Position numbers and translations under genes: made by a program. 25,262 nt of DNA from a virus, in the IMG/VR virus record IMGVR_UViG_3300018080_000557, positions 1-25,262 of that record; one strand, 5' to 3'. The notes under the pieces were generated by a model, which had not been told where the DNA came from, did no database searches, and was given only the letters and a program-made list of their open reading frames with translations. Positions 12,191-19,810 of this stretch are shown here, piece after piece. Each line of letters opens with the position of its first letter. The first letter of the stretch is position 1.

Positions 12191-12664
12191 TTAGTCCTCC
12201 TTGCCCTTGGCAATCTTTTCCATTTTCACGATAATTTCCTGGCCGCTTTGAAGATTGTCCAGGATTTTGAATTTGCATTCGGAATAGTATCCGTATTTTT
12301 TCCCGATCTCCGTGGTGGGATCGAAGTAATTCAAGCTGCGCTCGTGCAGGTGCCATTTGTGCGTCGGATCGATCCAAGAGTTTTCGCTCTGCCAATGCGG
12401 ATACCTGATTTCGGCCACGCCTCCGGGCTTCAATATCCGGTGGATTTCCTCGAGCGTGTCGACCACTGAGTCGAGGTGCTCGAGAATATCCAGCGCGTAA
12501 ACGCAATCAAATTCCTCGTCGGAAAACGGCCAGGGCAACTCATTCAAATCATGGATCACTTCGGCGCCCGTCGACGGCCTCATATCGACGTTGACGGCGG
12601 CCGGCATGCGCTGGTCGCCGCTTCCCAGGTTGAGCGCCTTATACGACTGCTTGGTCGATTTCAT
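12191..12664 (-). CDS. SAM-dependent class I methyltransferase
   Basis: This is a 157-residue protein with the class I Rossmann signature. Motif I is LNLGSGDQ at residues 11-18, an acidic ribose-binding residue follows in VNVDM (Asp27), then LDILEH at 58-63 and ILKPGG at 77-82, as in Methyltransf_11-type enzymes. It is shorter than typical members (about 200-250 residues), and the C-terminal substrate cap is small (WIDPTHKWHLHERSLNYF). The gene overlaps the sulfotransferase by 26 bases and has AAGGA 6 nt before its ATG. Its position with a glycosyltransferase and a sulfotransferase suggests methyl transfer to a sugar hydroxyl, but protein or small-molecule substrates cannot be excluded. There are no DNA methyltransferase motifs. 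Confidence 0.85.
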   Translation of the reverse strand: MKSTKQSYKALNLGSGDQRMPAAVNVDMRPSTGAEVIHDLNELPWPFSDEEFDCVYALDILEHLDSVVDTLEEIHRILKPGGVAEIRYPHWQSENSWIDPTHKWHLHERSLNYFDPTTEIGKKYGYYSECKFKILDNLQSGQEIIVKMEKIAKGKED

Positions 12665-13343
12665 AACACGTCCTTATTTTCCGCTTCGACCTGGCAAACA
12701 GGTAGAGCTCCAGGTCCAGCGGATTTTCTTGATAGATCCGAGCTCGCATCGCATCGGTCAATGAATAGACTTTCCGGATCAGCTTGCCGTCTATTTCATC
12801 GTATTCGCCGGCAGCGCGTTTGCGTTGCCAGTCGTTCGCGATACCGAGCCCCTCGCATAGCCAGTCAAAATCGGCATCCAGATAATCCGTTGTGGTCGCA
12901 AGCCAGCAGCGGCTGATAAAATCTTTGATCTCAGGCATCTGCCCTTGATTCTGCAGCCAAAAGCGACGGCACCACTCATACAGCCTGTTTCGCCTGGCTT
13001 CGAGTGGATAGATCGAGTTGGCGCCGCCCTCGTACCAATTCTCGAAGCTCGCATTGATCTTTCGCCGGCTGATGTCATGATGGTAGATCGAAACGAGCCA
13101 GGCGGCCGGATCCCGGAGCACGGTCATGTAGCGCACCTTGCGGCCCGGATATTTGACATGGAAGCTGCAATCCAGGCGATGGCCCTGCACAAAGACAGTA
13201 TCCTGATCCGGCACCTTCTGGCCGAGCTCGCAATCGAGATTGCAGTACCGCCCGGGCATTTGCCGCGCCAGGTGATGGATAATCGTGGATCCGCCAGTTT
13301 TGGGAACGTGGAGAAAGGCTATCAAATCCCGGGATCCTATCAT
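12639..13343 (-). CDS. Sulfotransferase (PAPS-dependent, Sulfotransfer_2-like)
   Basis: This is a 234-residue protein. Residues 11-20, LHVPKTGGST, are the 5'-phosphosulfate-binding loop of PAPS sulfotransferases. A GH pair near 54-55 is followed by YMTVLRDPAAWLVSIYHH at 72-89, which contains the 3'-phosphate-binding arginine (Arg77) and serine (Ser85). This order matches carbohydrate sulfotransferases of the heparan/uronyl 2-O-sulfotransferase type. No membrane anchor is present, so it acts in the cytoplasm, using host PAPS. The ATG overlaps the glycosyltransferase stop (ATGA), with AAGGA 7 nt upstream. A sugar hydroxyl as acceptor is likely given the family and neighbour. Sulfotransferases are unusual inside phage structural operons. 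Confidence 0.88.
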   Translation of the reverse strand: MIGSRDLIAFLHVPKTGGSTIIHHLARQMPGRYCNLDCELGQKVPDQDTVFVQGHRLDCSFHVKYPGRKVRYMTVLRDPAAWLVSIYHHDISRRKINASFENWYEGGANSIYPLEARRNRLYEWCRRFWLQNQGQMPEIKDFISRCWLATTTDYLDADFDWLCEGLGIANDWQRKRAAGEYDEIDGKLIRKVYSLTDAMRARIYQENPLDLELYLFARSKRKIRTCYEIDQAVV

Positions 13344-14371
13344 GCGATCATCCTTGCTTTGGGCCCGGTGTACTGCTCAATGATTTCCATGAAGCGCCTG
13401 GCCGAAATATCCCAGGTAAGCTCGCGCCGCACCCGCTCCGCAGCGCGCAGCCCCCGCTCGAGAGCGGCCTCGTAATCGGTATAGATCTCGAGCATGCGCT
13501 CGATAATCGAGCCGGTGTCCGGATTCGCCATCCGCGTTTTATGGATGCAGCCGATGTTGGTTTCGTTGATAACGACGTCGTCCATCTTGAAGCGCACCGG
13601 ATAGCCTTCGCGTTCCGACAGAAAATCATTCGGCCCGGAGTATGGCGTGTAGATGCAAGGAAGCCCGGTGCTCATTGCCTCGGCGAGCGGCAGGCCGAAA
13701 CCTTCTCCCATGGTCGGCCAAAGGAAAGCGTGCGCGAACCAGTAAAGCTCAGGCAGGCTGGGCCAATCGGATTTCGGATCCTTGCGCAGCGGCAGCACGC
13801 GCGTGTCGATGTAGACGTTGTCCGGAGCTTGGACCACTTCCTGGCGGCAGCCGGCAACGGTCGTTTTCATGATCAGCTGCGTTTTGCGAGCGACCTCCGG
13901 ATGCAGCTTGTACCAGTATTCCCAGGCGACCTTGATATGCGCGATACCTTTGCGAGGATTCGTGGCGCCAATCCAGAGAAAAGTGAACATTCTGTCTCGA
14001 GGATGCTCCCGCACGTGGTACTTATAGAGCCGCGGATCCACGCCCTCGAGGCAGACTTCGATCGGCAGATCCGTGTAACGGCCGAGAACCTCTTTGCTGT
14101 GCGAGCTCGGCACTACAATCAAATCGGCTTTGTTCATCGGCTCGGGCCAGGCATCCGGTATATTTTCGCCTTCATACATGGTATAGAGCACGTTGAACTT
14201 TGCCGGATCCGGCTCGAAGTGCCAGGGCGTGGTGATATGCACGGCGACGCGAGCTCGGGAATCGATGCGCACGCCGGCGGCCTTCAGAGCCTGGCAAAGC
14301 ATTTTCTGGTGAGTCGAGTAGCCGAAGTTATTGCCGATGTCCTGATAGCTGCGAGTCCAATCCAGCGTCAT
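13340..14371 (-). CDS. GT4-family glycosyltransferase
   Basis: This is a 343-residue protein from the ATG at 14371, chosen because it forms an ATGA overlap with the tail terminator gene and has GTGGAG 8 nt upstream. An earlier in-frame start at 14452 would run into that gene. Two-domain GT-B architecture is evident. The N-terminal part contains VLYTMYEGENIPDAW and KADLIVVPSSHSKEVL (residues 61-96). The C-terminal part contains FLWIGATNPRKGI and the retaining-enzyme signature EGFGLPLAEAMSTGLP, with the paired glutamates Glu223 and Glu231 spaced by seven residues that define GT4. It transfers a sugar from a nucleotide donor; donor and acceptor are unknown. Its place in late tail genes suggests virion protein glycosylation. 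Confidence 0.9.
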   Translation of the reverse strand: MTLDWTRSYQDIGNNFGYSTHQKMLCQALKAAGVRIDSRARVAVHITTPWHFEPDPAKFNVLYTMYEGENIPDAWPEPMNKADLIVVPSSHSKEVLGRYTDLPIEVCLEGVDPRLYKYHVREHPRDRMFTFLWIGATNPRKGIAHIKVAWEYWYKLHPEVARKTQLIMKTTVAGCRQEVVQAPDNVYIDTRVLPLRKDPKSDWPSLPELYWFAHAFLWPTMGEGFGLPLAEAMSTGLPCIYTPYSGPNDFLSEREGYPVRFKMDDVVINETNIGCIHKTRMANPDTGSIIERMLEIYTDYEAALERGLRAAERVRRELTWDISARRFMEIIEQYTGPKARMIA

Positions 14372-14766
14372 TCCCAATACTCCACAAAAGCATCGAACAT
14401 AAAGTGGTAGATGTCCTTCCGGACCCGGGGACCGTTGATGATTCCCGAGCAAACAATCCTTTCGACATTAAACTCGTCCATGGCGCCGCGGTAATACTGC
14501 AGCTCGTCGCGGATCGTTTTGGCGCCGTTCCGTGGGACGTATTTGTCGCTGTCGAAAATGGAAAACTGGATGCGTGCCTGGCCGGCATGGATTTTGTCGA
14601 AATAGGCCGCGGCATGCGGATCCGAGACAACGAAAAAAACACAGTAGGGCTTAGCCGTATCCTGGTCGGCTTCGACAAAATAGAGCCGCGAACCGAACAC
14701 TGTAGTCACGGCTTCCTGGGCGAGAAGGTAGTTGTAAAGTGCCTGCTCTATGAGCGTGCTAGCCAC
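14368..14766 (-). CDS. Tail terminator/completion protein (gp11-like, DUF3168-like)
   Basis: This is a 132-residue protein starting with GTG, with GAGGAG 8 nt upstream; it overlaps the preceding gene by 8 bases. It begins with a helix and the common TxVFGSRLYFVEADQDTAKPYCVFFVVSD pattern. A central QIQFSIFD-like strand (ARIQFSIFDSDKY) follows, typical of the DUF3168/lambda gpU-like fold. The family caps the finished tail tube and joins it to the head. Synteny after the gp10-like protein is right. The next gene normally encodes the tail tube; here three enzyme genes intervene. Confidence 0.8.
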   Translation of the reverse strand: MASTLIEQALYNYLLAQEAVTTVFGSRLYFVEADQDTAKPYCVFFVVSDPHAAAYFDKIHAGQARIQFSIFDSDKYVPRNGAKTIRDELQYYRGAMDEFNVERIVCSGIINGPRVRKDIYHFMFDAFVEYWE

Positions 14767-15130: not shown

Positions 15131-15442
15131 TCAATTCAGCTCCTTTACCATGAGTTGCAGCTGCACCGCATTGCGTTCATCCGGAATAACGGCCACAATC
15201 CCGTACGTTTTGCTGTTTGCTACAGCGCGCATCATGGACGTTATTCCCGATCGGTAGCGAATGGTGATTCTGGCCGTAACCTCGGAATTCACCTTGCTCG
15301 CATCCCAAAACTCGCGGCCGCGGATCGGCTCGATCGCGCCCCAAACCGTCGCATATGTTGTCCAGCTATCCTCCGTTTCCCAGGTCGAGGAAGTATCGCG
15401 CTGCTGAATTGTCACACGGTGCCTGAGCCTGCCTGCTTTCAC
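15131..15442 (-). CDS. Head closure / head-tail adaptor protein (SPP1 gp16-like)
   Basis: This is a 103-residue protein from a GTG at 15442 that overlaps the upstream stop as GTGA and lies 10 nt after AAAGGA. A TTG three codons earlier is too close to that ribosome site. The N-terminus KAGRLRHRVTIQQRD is the family hallmark, followed by WTTYATVWGAIEPIRGREFWDA and ITIRYRSGI, all typical of the Phage_H_T_join family. The protein forms the ring that closes the connector after packaging and docks the tail. Confidence 0.88.
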   Translation of the reverse strand: MKAGRLRHRVTIQQRDTSSTWETEDSWTTYATVWGAIEPIRGREFWDASKVNSEVTARITIRYRSGITSMMRAVANSKTYGIVAVIPDERNAVQLQLMVKELN

Positions 15443-16014
15443 AGCGGCCAAATCCTTTCGAGACCCAGCAAGCTCTTTACCGCAAACGGCACTTCGAAAT
15501 GCGTGCGGATATCGCTGACTTCCCGATTCTCGTAGAGCTCGGCAACAATCATCTTGATGGCTGTTTTGACCGCTTCCGGAACATCGGAAGCATCATCCCC
15601 GTAGCCGGCTATGAAACGCACGACAAAGCCATTCATGGACCGAAGTGTTGTAGTAGGCCATTCCTGGCCGTAATCCAAGGCAATGCGGCCTTTGAAGCTT
15701 GCCGTATCCACCTGGTAATAATCAGAGCTAAACTCGGTTTCCGTTTCGTCCGTGTCGTAATACTTGATGTGCGTCACGGACTGCAGCGGCGGTTTAGGCA
15801 GCGAAAACGGCTCAGCAGGATAATCGTCAAAAAAGAGATCCCATGTTTGCGTGAGATAGGCTCGATTTTGATACTTTTCCGCCCATTCGCGCGCCGCGGT
15901 AATCAGCGATTCGATCAGCACATCATCTTTATCGTCATCGATGCGCAGATGATCTTTCGCGTCGCTGACTGTTACCGGCTCGACCGTGGGCGCCGTAACC
16001 AGCTGTAGGGCCAC
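15439..16014 (-). CDS. Head-tail connector protein (gp6-like)
   Basis: This is a 191-residue protein. The N-terminal half has TVSDAKDHLRIDDDKDDVLIESLI, the standard helix start of gp6/phiE125 gp8-like connector proteins. It then has REWAEKYQNRAYLTQTWDLFFDDYP and PKPPLQSVTHIKYYD, a pattern repeated in many such proteins. The GTG start is preceded by AAGGA. The protein forms the ring directly below the portal. It is the first gene after the roughly 100-base gap that contains a hairpin, so it may be regulated separately from the head genes. Confidence 0.87.
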   Translation of the reverse strand: MALQLVTAPTVEPVTVSDAKDHLRIDDDKDDVLIESLITAAREWAEKYQNRAYLTQTWDLFFDDYPAEPFSLPKPPLQSVTHIKYYDTDETETEFSSDYYQVDTASFKGRIALDYGQEWPTTTLRSMNGFVVRFIAGYGDDASDVPEAVKTAIKMIVAELYENREVSDIRTHFEVPFAVKSLLGLERIWPL

Positions 16015-16114: not shown

Positions 16115-16432
16115 TCAACGGTAAATGACCTCCAGCCCCCATTGCTTGGAGTTCGTGTTGGTGTACGTGAACTTCACGGCATCCGATTTCCGAAACCACA
16201 GCGGCCGCGTCGGCAGGTACTGATCGTCGGTTTCGGCGTTCATATCCTGAGCGTGCAGGGATGTGTTCCAGCGGGATCCTTCCCCGGACACAAGGGCAAC
16301 CGCGAAATTCTCCGAGGCGCCGCCGGCAGCCGACAGGTGCAGCCGAACCTCTTCGAGCTGCCACTCGGCTTTATCGAGTGACAGCTCGACGCTCATGGCC
16401 GCGTCTCCTTGATAAAAAACATGGTTTGCCAT
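16115..16432 (-). CDS. Small virion-associated protein of unknown function
   Basis: This is a 105-residue protein from the ATG at 16432, which has TAGGAG 6 nt upstream, formed partly by the previous gene's stop. A second in-frame ATG at 16396 (MSVELSLDKAEW) has an even better AAGGAG at 8 nt, so either or both may be used. The sequence is beta-rich with no known motif (LHLSAAGGASENFAVALVSGEG; WFRKSDAVKFTY). It follows two lectin-fold genes, so a capsid surface or fibre role is plausible. Function is unknown. Confidence 0.6.
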   Translation of the reverse strand: MANHVFYQGDAAMSVELSLDKAEWQLEEVRLHLSAAGGASENFAVALVSGEGSRWNTSLHAQDMNAETDDQYLPTRPLWFRKSDAVKFTYTNTNSKQWGLEVIYR

Positions 16433-16441
16433 GAGCAACTC

Positions 16442-17155
16442 CTATTCGATCATGATCGCGCGAGCCCACTTGACGTAAAGGACTTCGGCGCCGTCATCGC
16501 CGGCGCGTACGTTGAACGAAGGAGTCAGGGCCTGGTCCGCCAACCCGGAGGTGATGCTCGTCACCAGAGAGTTGTCGACGTAGACGTACAACGTCGAGCC
16601 ATCCCAGTAGAACTCGTAGATGTGATAGTTGGTGTCGTTGGTGACGCCGGTTGCGGTGGCGCCCTCGGTGCCGCCGAGCTCGTTGACGAAAATGAAAGCC
16701 GTGCCGTCGTTAAGCTTGTAGAAGTAAAGCCCGTCGTCCGTTACTGCCAGGGCGTGGGCCGAGGCAGTCGCGAGCAAGGTCGTGTCGACTTCGCACAAAC
16801 CGAACAAGAAATCGCCTTTCGTGGCGTTGTCCGTTTTGGCCTCGATACCGTAGTAAACCGGTTTGTTGGCCTGGATCTTGAAAGCCGAGCCTTTGACCTG
16901 CAAGTTGACGCCGTTGTATTCGGTCCCGCCTGTCGTGATAAGCAGGCGATCGCCGGTGGTGGTGGAGCTCACCGCGCTGTTGGTTCCGCCCTCCGTATTG
17001 GTCATCGTGGTGGGATCCGCGCTCGAGTCGTCCTGAGCCAGGCCGACTCCGAGCTCCCACTCGGTAACGTTCTGCCCGATCGCCTTCAGCCAGCGGGCGT
17101 TGAAACGGTCGTCGTAATAGACGAGGGCGTTTCTTACAGATTGAGTCTGAATCAT
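16442..17155 (-). CDS. ConA/LamG-like lectin-fold protein (second of two)
   Basis: This is a 237-residue protein with a beta-sandwich pattern. YYDDRFNARWLKAIG leads into strands, KPVYYGIEAKTDNATKGDFLFGLC follows, then YHIYEFYWDGSTLYVYVDNSLV, and finally ADGAEVLYVKW-like strands at the end (VLYVKWARAIMIE). The 'WDGSTLYVYVDN' block is typical of concanavalin/LamG modules. It resembles its neighbour at 17171 in layout but is strongly diverged. A strong GGGAGG ribosome site precedes the ATG. It is probably a capsid decoration or surface carbohydrate-binding protein, inferred from position after the capsid genes. Confidence 0.62.
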   Translation of the reverse strand: MIQTQSVRNALVYYDDRFNARWLKAIGQNVTEWELGVGLAQDDSSADPTTMTNTEGGTNSAVSSTTTGDRLLITTGGTEYNGVNLQVKGSAFKIQANKPVYYGIEAKTDNATKGDFLFGLCEVDTTLLATASAHALAVTDDGLYFYKLNDGTAFIFVNELGGTEGATATGVTNDTNYHIYEFYWDGSTLYVYVDNSLVTSITSGLADQALTPSFNVRAGDDGAEVLYVKWARAIMIE

Positions 17156-17170
17156 CGTGTTCCTCCCCTC

Positions 17171-17914
17171 TTACGATCTGTTCTGCCAGATCTTGACGTA
17201 GTCGACCGACAGTACGCCGAGACCGGCTCCAGAGGCCTTATACAGCCCCAAATGCGGCTGCGCCTTGCTGTTGGCCGCGCTGGCTGCATTTGCGAAAGTG
17301 GTCGATCCGGCAACACGCGCGCCATTGATATAGAACTTGATATCGGTCTGCGTCGTGCAATCGATCCGGAAAATGTAGTAGGTGCCGGCCACCATCGTGA
17401 CGCCGGCCGCGGCCGAGGTGTCGGTTGCGTTGTCGTCGGATTCGCAGGCTACCGCGCCGCCGGCCGGGACTTCGAAGCCTACCCGATAGGCGGACCCGCC
17501 ATCGGCCCAGGCGCCCCACAATCCCCAGGAAGCCACGCCATTGAGCGTCGGCAAAGTCGTGAGAGATAACCGAGCTTCGAATATGGCGGCTTGCGCGATC
17601 GAAAACATGAGCTCGTCGTTCATGTGCAGCGCCGCGTCCTGTTTCTGCGAGGCGCTGGTCAGCGAGCAGGCGACCAGGCCATTGACTCCGTCGGCCGTTT
17701 TAGCGACGGTAGGTGGCGCTGCGCCGACGATTTTCGACGTCCATTTGCAGCCTGATTCGTCGGATCCGCTTGCCGGAATAACGACGTCGGCGCCGATGAA
17801 ATCGTCGTAAAAGCAGATCGGGTACTGCGCCAGCAGCGTTTCGAACGAGCTCCCGTCATAAAACGCCTGCCGGCCGGTTTCATGCCAGTTGTAGGCAGAT
17901 CTTGTTTTGCTCAT
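17171..17914 (-). CDS. ConA/LamG-like lectin-fold protein (first of two)
   Basis: This is a 247-residue protein starting at the ATG at 17914, which has AAAGGAG 8 nt upstream; an ATG eight codons earlier would place the ribosome site inside the gene. The layout fits a lectin sandwich: FYDDFIGADV near the start, FEARLSLTTL, VGFEVPAG, TYYIFRIDCTTQTDIKFYINGARVAG, and a final VLSVDYVKIWQ, which is a common last strand of this fold. It follows a terminator-like hairpin after the capsid and decoration genes. Carbohydrate binding on the capsid surface is a reasonable role but not shown by the sequence. Confidence 0.65.
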   Translation of the reverse strand: MSKTRSAYNWHETGRQAFYDGSSFETLLAQYPICFYDDFIGADVVIPASGSDESGCKWTSKIVGAAPPTVAKTADGVNGLVACSLTSASQKQDAALHMNDELMFSIAQAAIFEARLSLTTLPTLNGVASWGLWGAWADGGSAYRVGFEVPAGGAVACESDDNATDTSAAAGVTMVAGTYYIFRIDCTTQTDIKFYINGARVAGSTTFANAASAANSKAQPHLGLYKASGAGLGVLSVDYVKIWQNRS

Positions 17915-17998: not shown

Positions 17999-18469
17999 CT
18001 AGTCTACGGCGCTGATCTGCGAGGCCTGGGCGTACCGCGGATACAGAATCGCGATGGCACCGACCAGGAGAGCGCTCATAGACCCGCCCGGATCCAGCTT
18101 GACCCGCACGTAGGGATAGCCGGACGAAAGCTCCGAAGAGTCCACGTCCACCAGGACAACTTTGTTGTCGTCCGTGGCTGCTATCGTGATGCCAGTGCTG
18201 GCGCCGGCTGTCAGCGCACCCATGCTGTCCGTTCCGACAGCCGAAGATTTCCGGTATCGGAACGCGATCGCCGTGGTGTTGGAGGCGGAAATATCGTCGC
18301 ACTCCTCCACCGTCAGCGCGATGGTGTCGCCGGTTATGGCACCGAATACGATCACGAATTCGACGTGATGGTATTCCTTTAGGCCGATGATATCGGTGTA
18401 GGTAGTCGTGGTGGTGATATCAGCCGGAGCGATCGCCGGGACTATGTGAATTCGTTCATCAACAAACAT
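17999..18469 (-). CDS. Probable capsid decoration protein
   Basis: This is a 156-residue protein directly after the major capsid gene, with AAGGAGG 8 nt before the ATG. It is beta-rich (HHVEFVIVFGAITGDTIALTVEE; ITIAATDDNKVVLVDVDSSEL; YPYVRVKLDPGGSMSALLVGAIAILYPRYA). The last block closely resembles small virion proteins found next to HK97-fold capsid genes. It has no known catalytic motif. A head decoration or cement role is the best guess from position and from the very strong ribosome site. The downstream terminator groups it with the capsid gene for high expression. Confidence 0.62.
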   Translation of the reverse strand: MFVDERIHIVPAIAPADITTTTTYTDIIGLKEYHHVEFVIVFGAITGDTIALTVEECDDISASNTTAIAFRYRKSSAVGTDSMGALTAGASTGITIAATDDNKVVLVDVDSSELSSGYPYVRVKLDPGGSMSALLVGAIAILYPRYAQASQISAVD

Positions 18470-18481
18470 CGATTTTCCTCC

Positions 18482-19810
18482 TTAGCTTCTGGCCGCAAGG
18501 ACCACAAAGGGCGAAAGCGTGTTGCTGCCTTTGTACGGGGTCAAGGCCGAATTCCAGAGAGGCTGCCCGTCGACCCGATAAACGAAGCGGAAGGCCGTCT
18601 CGTCGTAGTCGAAGCGGATGTGGATGCTGACAGCGCTCTGCACGCCACCCTTATCCATCAGCATGTACTGGCTCATATCAGCCAGCATAATGTCGCCCGA
18701 GGTGCCCAGCGTAGCGGCAAACTCGATCGGAATAACCGGCCGCCCCTTGAGGCTGGCATATGGGCTCGCTGAAATTCCGCCGGCCGGCAAATATGCCGGC
18801 ACGCCGCCGGTGCCGACCGGAACGGCCATGAGATCGAGCTGCGGTTCGACGTCCTGGTTGATAAACCACACGGCATTTGCCCGCGACCTGGCGTGCATTC
18901 TCGACCACATCTTGCTGATGTTTTCGAAAACGAGCGTGGCGGCCGTTTGGCCGGTTTCTTTGGCTACCGATACCAGGCACGGGCTGTTCATGATCCCGAG
19001 CGGCTTGCCGGCGCCGTCGCCGTTGTAAATGGCGTCGTCGACTGCAAAAGCGATTTCCTCGCCGAATCCCTGCTGCCCGATCGACTCCAGGCTGGACGCG
19101 TCCTGCAGGAGCTCGTCGGTCACGTACCAAAGGCCGGCGACCTTCTTGGGCTTCCAGGTCATCTCGCGAAATTTGGGCTTGGAAGAGGTTTTCTGGGCCG
19201 CTTCCGCCAGCCAATAAACCTGAATCCCGCCCCAGCGGTAACCGTCCGCGCGGCTGCTTTCGTCGACCGCGTTGATGGTCATGCTGTTGACGCCCTCGCC
19301 GAGAGTATTCGTCCGGCAGCGGCTGGCCAGCAGCGCACTATCGTGCATGATGGTCATGATGCCTTCCATGTGCGCGGTCTGCACCAGGAAACCGCCCTCG
19401 GACGGAACTCCTTCGTTGGAACCGCTGGCCGCACGCTCTTCGCGCGTAAAAACCAGCCGCGGATCCACACGCTGCCCGGGCGTACCGGCGGCATGCACCG
19501 CCTGAAGAAACTCTCCGAAATTGCGCCACTCCGACCTGTCTGCCTCTTCCCGTTCCCGCTCCTGCACGGCCCGCCGGCGTTCTTCCCTCGCGGGATCTTC
19601 CTGGGCCGGTTCCTGGCCGGAGCGCTGCTCTTCGATCTCGCGCGCTTCGGCGATGAGCTCGTCAAATCCGGCGATTTCCGTTTTGAGGCGATCGACTTCG
19701 CTGCGTTCCTCGTCAGTGTAGCCGCGGCTTTCCGCAGTCACTTTGTCGAGGCTCTCCTGGCGTTTCCGAAGCAGCTCGTCTTTTTTTCGAAGCAAAAGTC
19801 GTATATCCAC
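18482..19810 (-). CDS. Major capsid protein, HK97 fold, with delta domain
   Basis: This is a 442-residue protein with a GTG start and AGGAGG 6 nt upstream. Residues 1-95 are a highly charged coiled coil (KKDELLRKRQESLDKV, EEERRRAV-like segments), the delta scaffolding domain normally removed by the prohead protease. The mature HK97-fold part begins near 115-130 (ASGSNEGVPSEGGFLV), a typical start of the mature shell protein. It has the characteristic DDAIYNGDGAGKPLGIMNS, NAVWFINQDVEPQL and GRPVIPIEF, IMLADMSQYML blocks. It forms the icosahedral shell. Gene order after the protease is standard. Confidence 0.95.
   Translation of the reverse strand: MDIRLLLRKKDELLRKRQESLDKVTAESRGYTDEERSEVDRLKTEIAGFDELIAEAREIEEQRSGQEPAQEDPAREERRRAVQEREREEADRSEWRNFGEFLQAVHAAGTPGQRVDPRLVFTREERAASGSNEGVPSEGGFLVQTAHMEGIMTIMHDSALLASRCRTNTLGEGVNSMTINAVDESSRADGYRWGGIQVYWLAEAAQKTSSKPKFREMTWKPKKVAGLWYVTDELLQDASSLESIGQQGFGEEIAFAVDDAIYNGDGAGKPLGIMNSPCLVSVAKETGQTAATLVFENISKMWSRMHARSRANAVWFINQDVEPQLDLMAVPVGTGGVPAYLPAGGISASPYASLKGRPVIPIEFAATLGTSGDIMLADMSQYMLMDKGGVQSAVSIHIRFDYDETAFRFVYRVDGQPLWNSALTPYKGSNTLSPFVVLAARS

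Follow-up and report, generated by a model that had tools for sequence, protein, structure and literature searches.

Tandem lectin-like proteins behind phage capsid genes as candidate virion-head adhesins with an exchangeable head module

What might a phage do with two adjacent, lectin-like genes placed behind the gene for its capsid? The question is raised by a virus record of 25,262 bases, here called the window. According to Pfam and PHROG matches, its minus strand holds a portal gene, an HK97-type major capsid gene (18482..19810; PF05065, E 2.2e-45), four genes that we designate D, A, B and C, a head-tail adaptor gene (Ad1), and further connector and tail genes. A (17171..17914, minus strand) encodes 247 aa, comprising an N-terminal arm and a ConA/GH16-like head as judged from its translation, Pfam match, model and fold matches. 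B (16442..17155, minus strand; 237 aa) is, by its model and fold matches, a second ConA/GH16-like protein with an arm different from that of A. The two genes are separated by 15 nt, and inspection of the sequence places a purine-rich, ribosome-binding-like stretch before the ATG of each. The tandem arrangement behind the capsid gene, as given in the initial annotation, is thus borne out. That annotation also placed a decoration gene upstream of the pair; a gene, D (17999..18469, minus strand), is indeed present there, and it is by position that we list it as a candidate decoration protein. Its best PHROG, phrog_28483, is without function, and tblastn against phage records returned no relatives of D. 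On the other side of the pair lie C (16115..16432, minus strand), a small protein that usually accompanies B, for which we chose the ATG at 16432 behind AGGAG and which had no match in a PHROG search, and then the next recognised gene downstream, that for the adaptor (15439..16014, minus strand; PF05135, phrog_442 and phrog_40).

Structure prediction placed A and B in one fold class. AlphaFold2 models, built from alignments of 41 sequences for A and 19 for B, reached pLDDT 89.2 and pTM 0.89 for A, and pLDDT 85.5 and pTM 0.86 for B. With Foldseek, the top match for A was SO2946 (PDB 2a5z, E 1.6e-8) and that for B was the O-glycanase 6t2o (E 1.5e-7), with SO2946 ranking 8th (E 4.4e-7). A second structural comparison superimposed lichenase 3d6e on A over 172 residues (Z 18.9, rmsd 2.5) and on B over 171 (Z 18.2, rmsd 2.7); most alignments of this second look begin at A residue 24 or later, so that the arm's own fold is barely covered. 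Among the 50 matches listed for each fold search of A and B by the two methods, most were lectin, glucanase, lyase, sialidase or toxin-binding domains, and none was named as Ig. GH16 enzymes were also reached by sequence profiles of both proteins. A lies over the Pfam cut-off for PF22237, SO2946-like_C (31 vs 27 bits), and this model matches 23 of the 41 members of the A alignment (A4) at E <= 0.01. B had no match to PF22237 at E <= 1, nor did the four families reached at E <= 0.01 from the 19-member B alignment (A3) include it. Against the GH16 model PF00722, B scored 18.3 bits, below the cut-off of 22, and A had no match. We conclude that A and B are predicted two-sheet β-sandwiches of ConA/GH16 type, lectin-like in form, and the ConA/LamG-like fold originally read from the letters is upheld for both by modelling and comparison. 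Weak matches of single members to other families, such as the Shiga-like toxin B family (1 of 19 members), were taken as chance or shared lectin fold, as were the toxin receptor-binding domains among the Foldseek matches of A. ConA-like folds exist also in proteins that bind no sugar.

As had been noted initially, the two proteins are strongly diverged. BLASTP between A and B gives E 0.21, and a profile-profile comparison of their heads reaches 97.8% probability (E 7.4e-13) with wide alignments and only 21% with small ones; once the searches were iterated, the A profile recovered members of B and the B profile members of A, and the two are not independent afterwards. A tree of 74 distinct members (from 87 kept after removal of rows that were open-ended, shorter than 225 or longer than 300 aa, or contained X) separates an A side of 49 rows from a B side of 25, marine loci included, with split support of 100/97, and carries a long-branch warning. 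These comparisons indicate that the heads of A and B are homologous and split long ago. Since the heads appear to share ancestry, the first of the two origins originally proposed, an old duplication, is favoured; the two might, less probably, have been acquired separately from a single pool of phages. The arms gave a different result: their profile comparison returned 2.3% probability, at which no likeness is demonstrable, and the idea of a common arm was dropped. Because the arms are unlike, A and B probably occupy different positions on the virion head.

Composition of the family varies from phage to phage. Tandem copies (at least two, each over 600 nt) are found in 14 of 65 loci. Many of the 65 are short contigs; they were collected on the basis of resemblance to A or B, and some nearly repeat one another (the 51 A proteins form 47 clusters at 95%). 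The sets of heads encountered are A, AA, AB, AAB and ABAB. C has matches in 13 loci; B and C occur together in 10 of the 65, B alone in 2, C alone in 3 and neither in 50. One locus, L040, carries two B-side copies and, at 13244-14425, a longer third protein that also matches the family. In L018, L019, L028 and L096, family genes look interrupted (split or short frames, or unread bases), and intact copies are present elsewhere.

The place of these genes behind head genes is shared by most loci. A capsid gene lies within 4 kb upstream of the family in 30 of the 33 loci with enough upstream sequence, and an adaptor gene follows the family within 4 kb in 33 of 42 loci and not in the other 9; marine loci and one duplicate were left out of these counts, which contain some near-duplicate loci. 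The three upstream misses are L033, L040 and L099. L033 encodes a B that is 58% identical to the window's B, and the head protein of that record belongs to another family (phrog_1328). The A/B family is accessory to the head genes: L106 and L107, two near-identical copies of a single phage (10161 of 10165 positions agree), possess the capsid, D and adaptor genes and lack any A/B member in the interval from D to the adaptor.

Related lectins also stand behind major head proteins in three other groups of phages, of which one is cultured, and these head proteins show no detectable kinship with that of the window. In the marine locus L043, the lectin follows a phrog_9953 head protein; in MW202601, it starts one base after the annotated major capsid protein (profile score 105 bits); and in Caulobacter phage RLK, the lectin gp084 (63 bits) is located behind gp086, with the homing endonuclease gp085 between them. 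RLK gp086 (L118, 3225-4136) matches the head-protein PHROGs phrog_4523 (E 1.1e-13) and phrog_371 (E 4e-8), and the part of PMC11053796 used here states that the major capsid gene of RLK's cluster is unidentified. The window's capsid profile had no match at E <= 1 to the head proteins of L043, MW202601 or RLK.

Comparisons between loci show that A is built from two parts with separate histories: the arm (residues 1-37, 17804..17914, minus strand), which ends within FYDDF and is exchanged independently of the head, and the lectin-like head (residues 38-247, 17174..17803, minus strand), which is exchanged between phages. Between the close relatives L072 and L074, DNA identity is 91-100% up to +110, the end of the arm, falls to 48-71% up to about +710 across the head, and returns to 75-100% on to +2570. 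Compared codon by codon, the encoded arms are 100% identical in amino acids, the heads 48% and the last 12 residues 92%; the adaptors are 94% alike. L101 resembles the window in its head (87%) and not in its arm (33%), whereas relative to L030 its arm is 73% identical and its head 45%. Likewise, L002 matches the window at 86% in the head and 35% in the arm, and L077 at 85% in the arm and 42% in the head. All four arm types, which were sorted by eye after the alignment was seen, are found joined to the head type of the window, a single-linkage cluster of 20 members at 60%. The clearest head exchanges occur in a related group of phages that does not include the window, and the window's own case is made by a mismatch between likeness in A and likeness in the capsid. 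The A proteins of the window and L062 share 82% identity, compared with 33% for the major capsid protein and 24% for the portal. Loci were chosen by likeness to A, which selects for high A identity and not for a mismatch with the capsid. The arm (~37 residues) and the head of A thus recombine as modules.

Which of the two modules follows the capsid? In Mantel tests over 35 loci, distances in the major capsid protein were compared separately with those in the arm, here 34 residues, giving an r of 0.38 that 0 of 2000 permutations reached, and with those in the head, giving an r of 0.18 that 27 of 2000 reached. On these modest correlations, capsid likeness seems to be tracked more by the arm than by the head, which also correlates, weakly.

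The reading that we favour, and hold to be reasonably probable, is that A and B are accessory adhesins of the virion head, each consisting of a capsid-fitted anchor and an exchangeable head; their presence in virions, docking and sugar binding are what we infer. The short N-terminal arm of A and of B would dock on the phage's own head, and the ConA/GH16-like β-sandwich, which is without the GH16 motif, would face outward and bind carbohydrate or a similar surface ligand. The A gene is a two-module cassette, its arm remaining nearer to the lineage of the capsid and its head being swapped by recombination; sequences in the related group place this exchange close to two conserved stretches of the head, FYDDF at its start and DYVRIFQ(N/D)RS at its end. 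Duplication and exchange would yield head sets that differ from phage to phage, with heads exchanged according to ligand. The likely use would be a loose hold on polysaccharide of the host or habitat before the tail engages.

Other roles can be weighed against this one. The genes stand shortly before that for the head-tail adaptor, and A and B could be neck or collar proteins resembling fibritin whiskers, or accessories of the head-tail joint, with head exchange akin to swaps of collar fibres; the part of PMC3797505 used here describes modular swapping of the fibritin C-terminal domain in T4-like phages. We consider this unlikely: in MW202601 and in marine L043, the lectin comes directly after the head protein, and the next downstream gene tested is without an adaptor match. 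Position behind the capsid gene would also suit purely structural cement proteins in which the lectin fold braces the expanded shell and binds no sugar, and a stabilising protein with a predicted jelly roll, epsilon15 gp10, is listed in the portion of PMC7602432 at hand. A brace, however, should co-vary with the shell, and in this family the swapped part is the head rather than the arm, head likeness follows the capsid less, and the phage represented by L106 and L107 does without any member. A cement role therefore strikes us as distinctly unlikely.

A third possibility is suggested by a group of minus-strand genes (12191-14452) between those for the tail terminator and the major tail protein. 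They encode a GT4-type glycosyltransferase (13340..14452; PF20706 and PF00534 over cut-off, phrog_2170), a sulfotransferase-like protein (12639..13343; PF03567 at E 0.00096, below cut-off, and phrog_3347 at E 0.00037) and a methyltransferase (12191..12664; PF08241, E 1.4e-10). The initial annotation had connected this cassette with both lectins. The connection stands in part, in that, at a 3 kb threshold, a relative of the glycosyltransferase is present in 7 of the 13 loci that have B or C and in none of the 33 that have neither, and it does not extend to A. Listing loci with B or C that have and lack the glycosyltransferase, then those without B and C that have and lack it, the tables read 5/3/0/20 at 5.5 kb, 7/3/0/22 at 4.7 kb and 7/6/0/33 at 3 kb, and 4/3/1/20 (28 loci) when C alone or B alone is scored; thresholds were varied after the data were seen, the tables exclude the marine loci as well as L093, L099 and L100, and L101 is a manual addition. 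Relatives of the methyltransferase are present in L057 and L016 as well, both without B and C, and are thus not special to the B/C subgroup. The glycosyltransferase appears to be tied statistically to that subgroup and not to A, as an association among related phages. Such co-occurrence, together with a cassette that shares the lectins' strand within the late region, might mean that the ligand of the lectins is a glycan of the phage itself, put on virion proteins by the glycosyltransferase cassette. We regard this as very unlikely. A is present in the 33 loci that lack B and C, yet no such glycosyltransferase lies within the sequence covered there; 6 of the 13 B/C loci are likewise without one; and the association, among related loci, at a threshold varied post hoc and for one glycosyltransferase family, says nothing of binding. 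Highly improbable in our view is that A or B degrades polysaccharide through GH16 or lyase activity. GH16 glucanases and family 7 alginate lyases are indeed among the nearest solved folds, and the fold is common to A, B and the glucanases. The catalytic motif of GH16 is E-x-D-x-(x)-E. In strict form it was found in 0 of the 74 distinct members, and a loose pattern was found, irrespective of its place relative to the active site, in 3 of 74. Because none of the 74 carries the strict motif, A and B are probably not glucanases, and the enzyme reading was set aside.

Returning to accessory adhesins, parallels can be found both in plan and in role. Among the papers cited, the nearest in plan is pb10 of phage T5, an accessory protein with a capsid-binding N-terminal domain and a solvent-exposed C-terminal β-sandwich, as described in the part of PMC5292684 considered. 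The N-terminal domain of pb10 is helical (construct 1-77) and its head Ig-like; A, which is known from genes alone, has an arm of ~37 residues that is modelled chiefly as strand and coil, and a ConA-like head. The nearest parallels in role are T4 Hoc, pb10, SPP1 gp12 and phi29 gp8.5, which have other folds where the sources, as far as consulted, state one; Hoc is Ig-like, in contrast to the ConA-like heads described here. For Hoc, gp12 and gp8.5, the examined text of PMC7602432 gives a proposed binding of carbohydrates on host and non-host surfaces and little role in shell integrity; the word 'lectin' is absent from that text. Ig/BACON adhesins of gut phages, in the portion of PMC13370021 considered, consist of Ig-like modules in varied combinations, occur in distinct lineages near structural genes and were studied on gut epithelium. 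In the A/B family, by comparison, a single ConA-like head is replaced as a unit on a kept arm, in phages represented by sequence only, apart from the RLK-type isolates. The relation to SO2946 of Shewanella oneidensis (PF22237) is one of fold and Pfam match for A, at only 14% identity; the title of its structure entry gives the function as unknown, B is without a match to the Pfam model, and SO2946 is named once in the text of PMC4112983 available to us.

Carbohydrate-binding capsid decorations in the cited papers (PMC5292684, PMC7602432, PMC13370021), in the parts considered here, are Ig-like or of other folds. What the present family adds is natural exchange of an entire ConA/GH16-type head while the arm is kept, in genes that hold a constant position after the capsid gene and occur with several capsid families. 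More tentatively, we propose that the icosahedral head may serve as a socket for adhesins: the arm would be fitted to the lineage, phages with different capsids would trade ConA-type lectin heads, and A and B would represent two sockets with different arms. If so, cassette exchange would determine surface preference at the head shell, much as tail-fibre tips set host range. The question of whether phage heads carry exchangeable adhesins becomes directly testable, with a cultured member in Caulobacter phage RLK, which like phages RW, KcrB and GB2A comes from laboratory Caulobacter vibrioides as isolation host.

The A/B family is known almost only from environmental sequence. In tblastn searches of 50,697 phage records, A and B found no relative at E 0.01, and the members from L043, L071 and L092 found none. 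The cultured RLK-type relatives were reached only via an intermediate member, the first copy in L034, which detected six phage records at 24-30% identity and under 80% coverage. A literature search of titles and abstract openings yielded no description of the A/B lectin family. A genome scan for the family found two Spirochaetes MAG contigs, of 9.5 and 8.6 kb. When 392 Spirochaetes genomes were drawn, 4 matched, the starting genome strongly and three others weakly and in part. On a Spirochaetaceae MAG contig (L102, 3484-7815), two D-like genes and A-B-A-B-C stand in a row.
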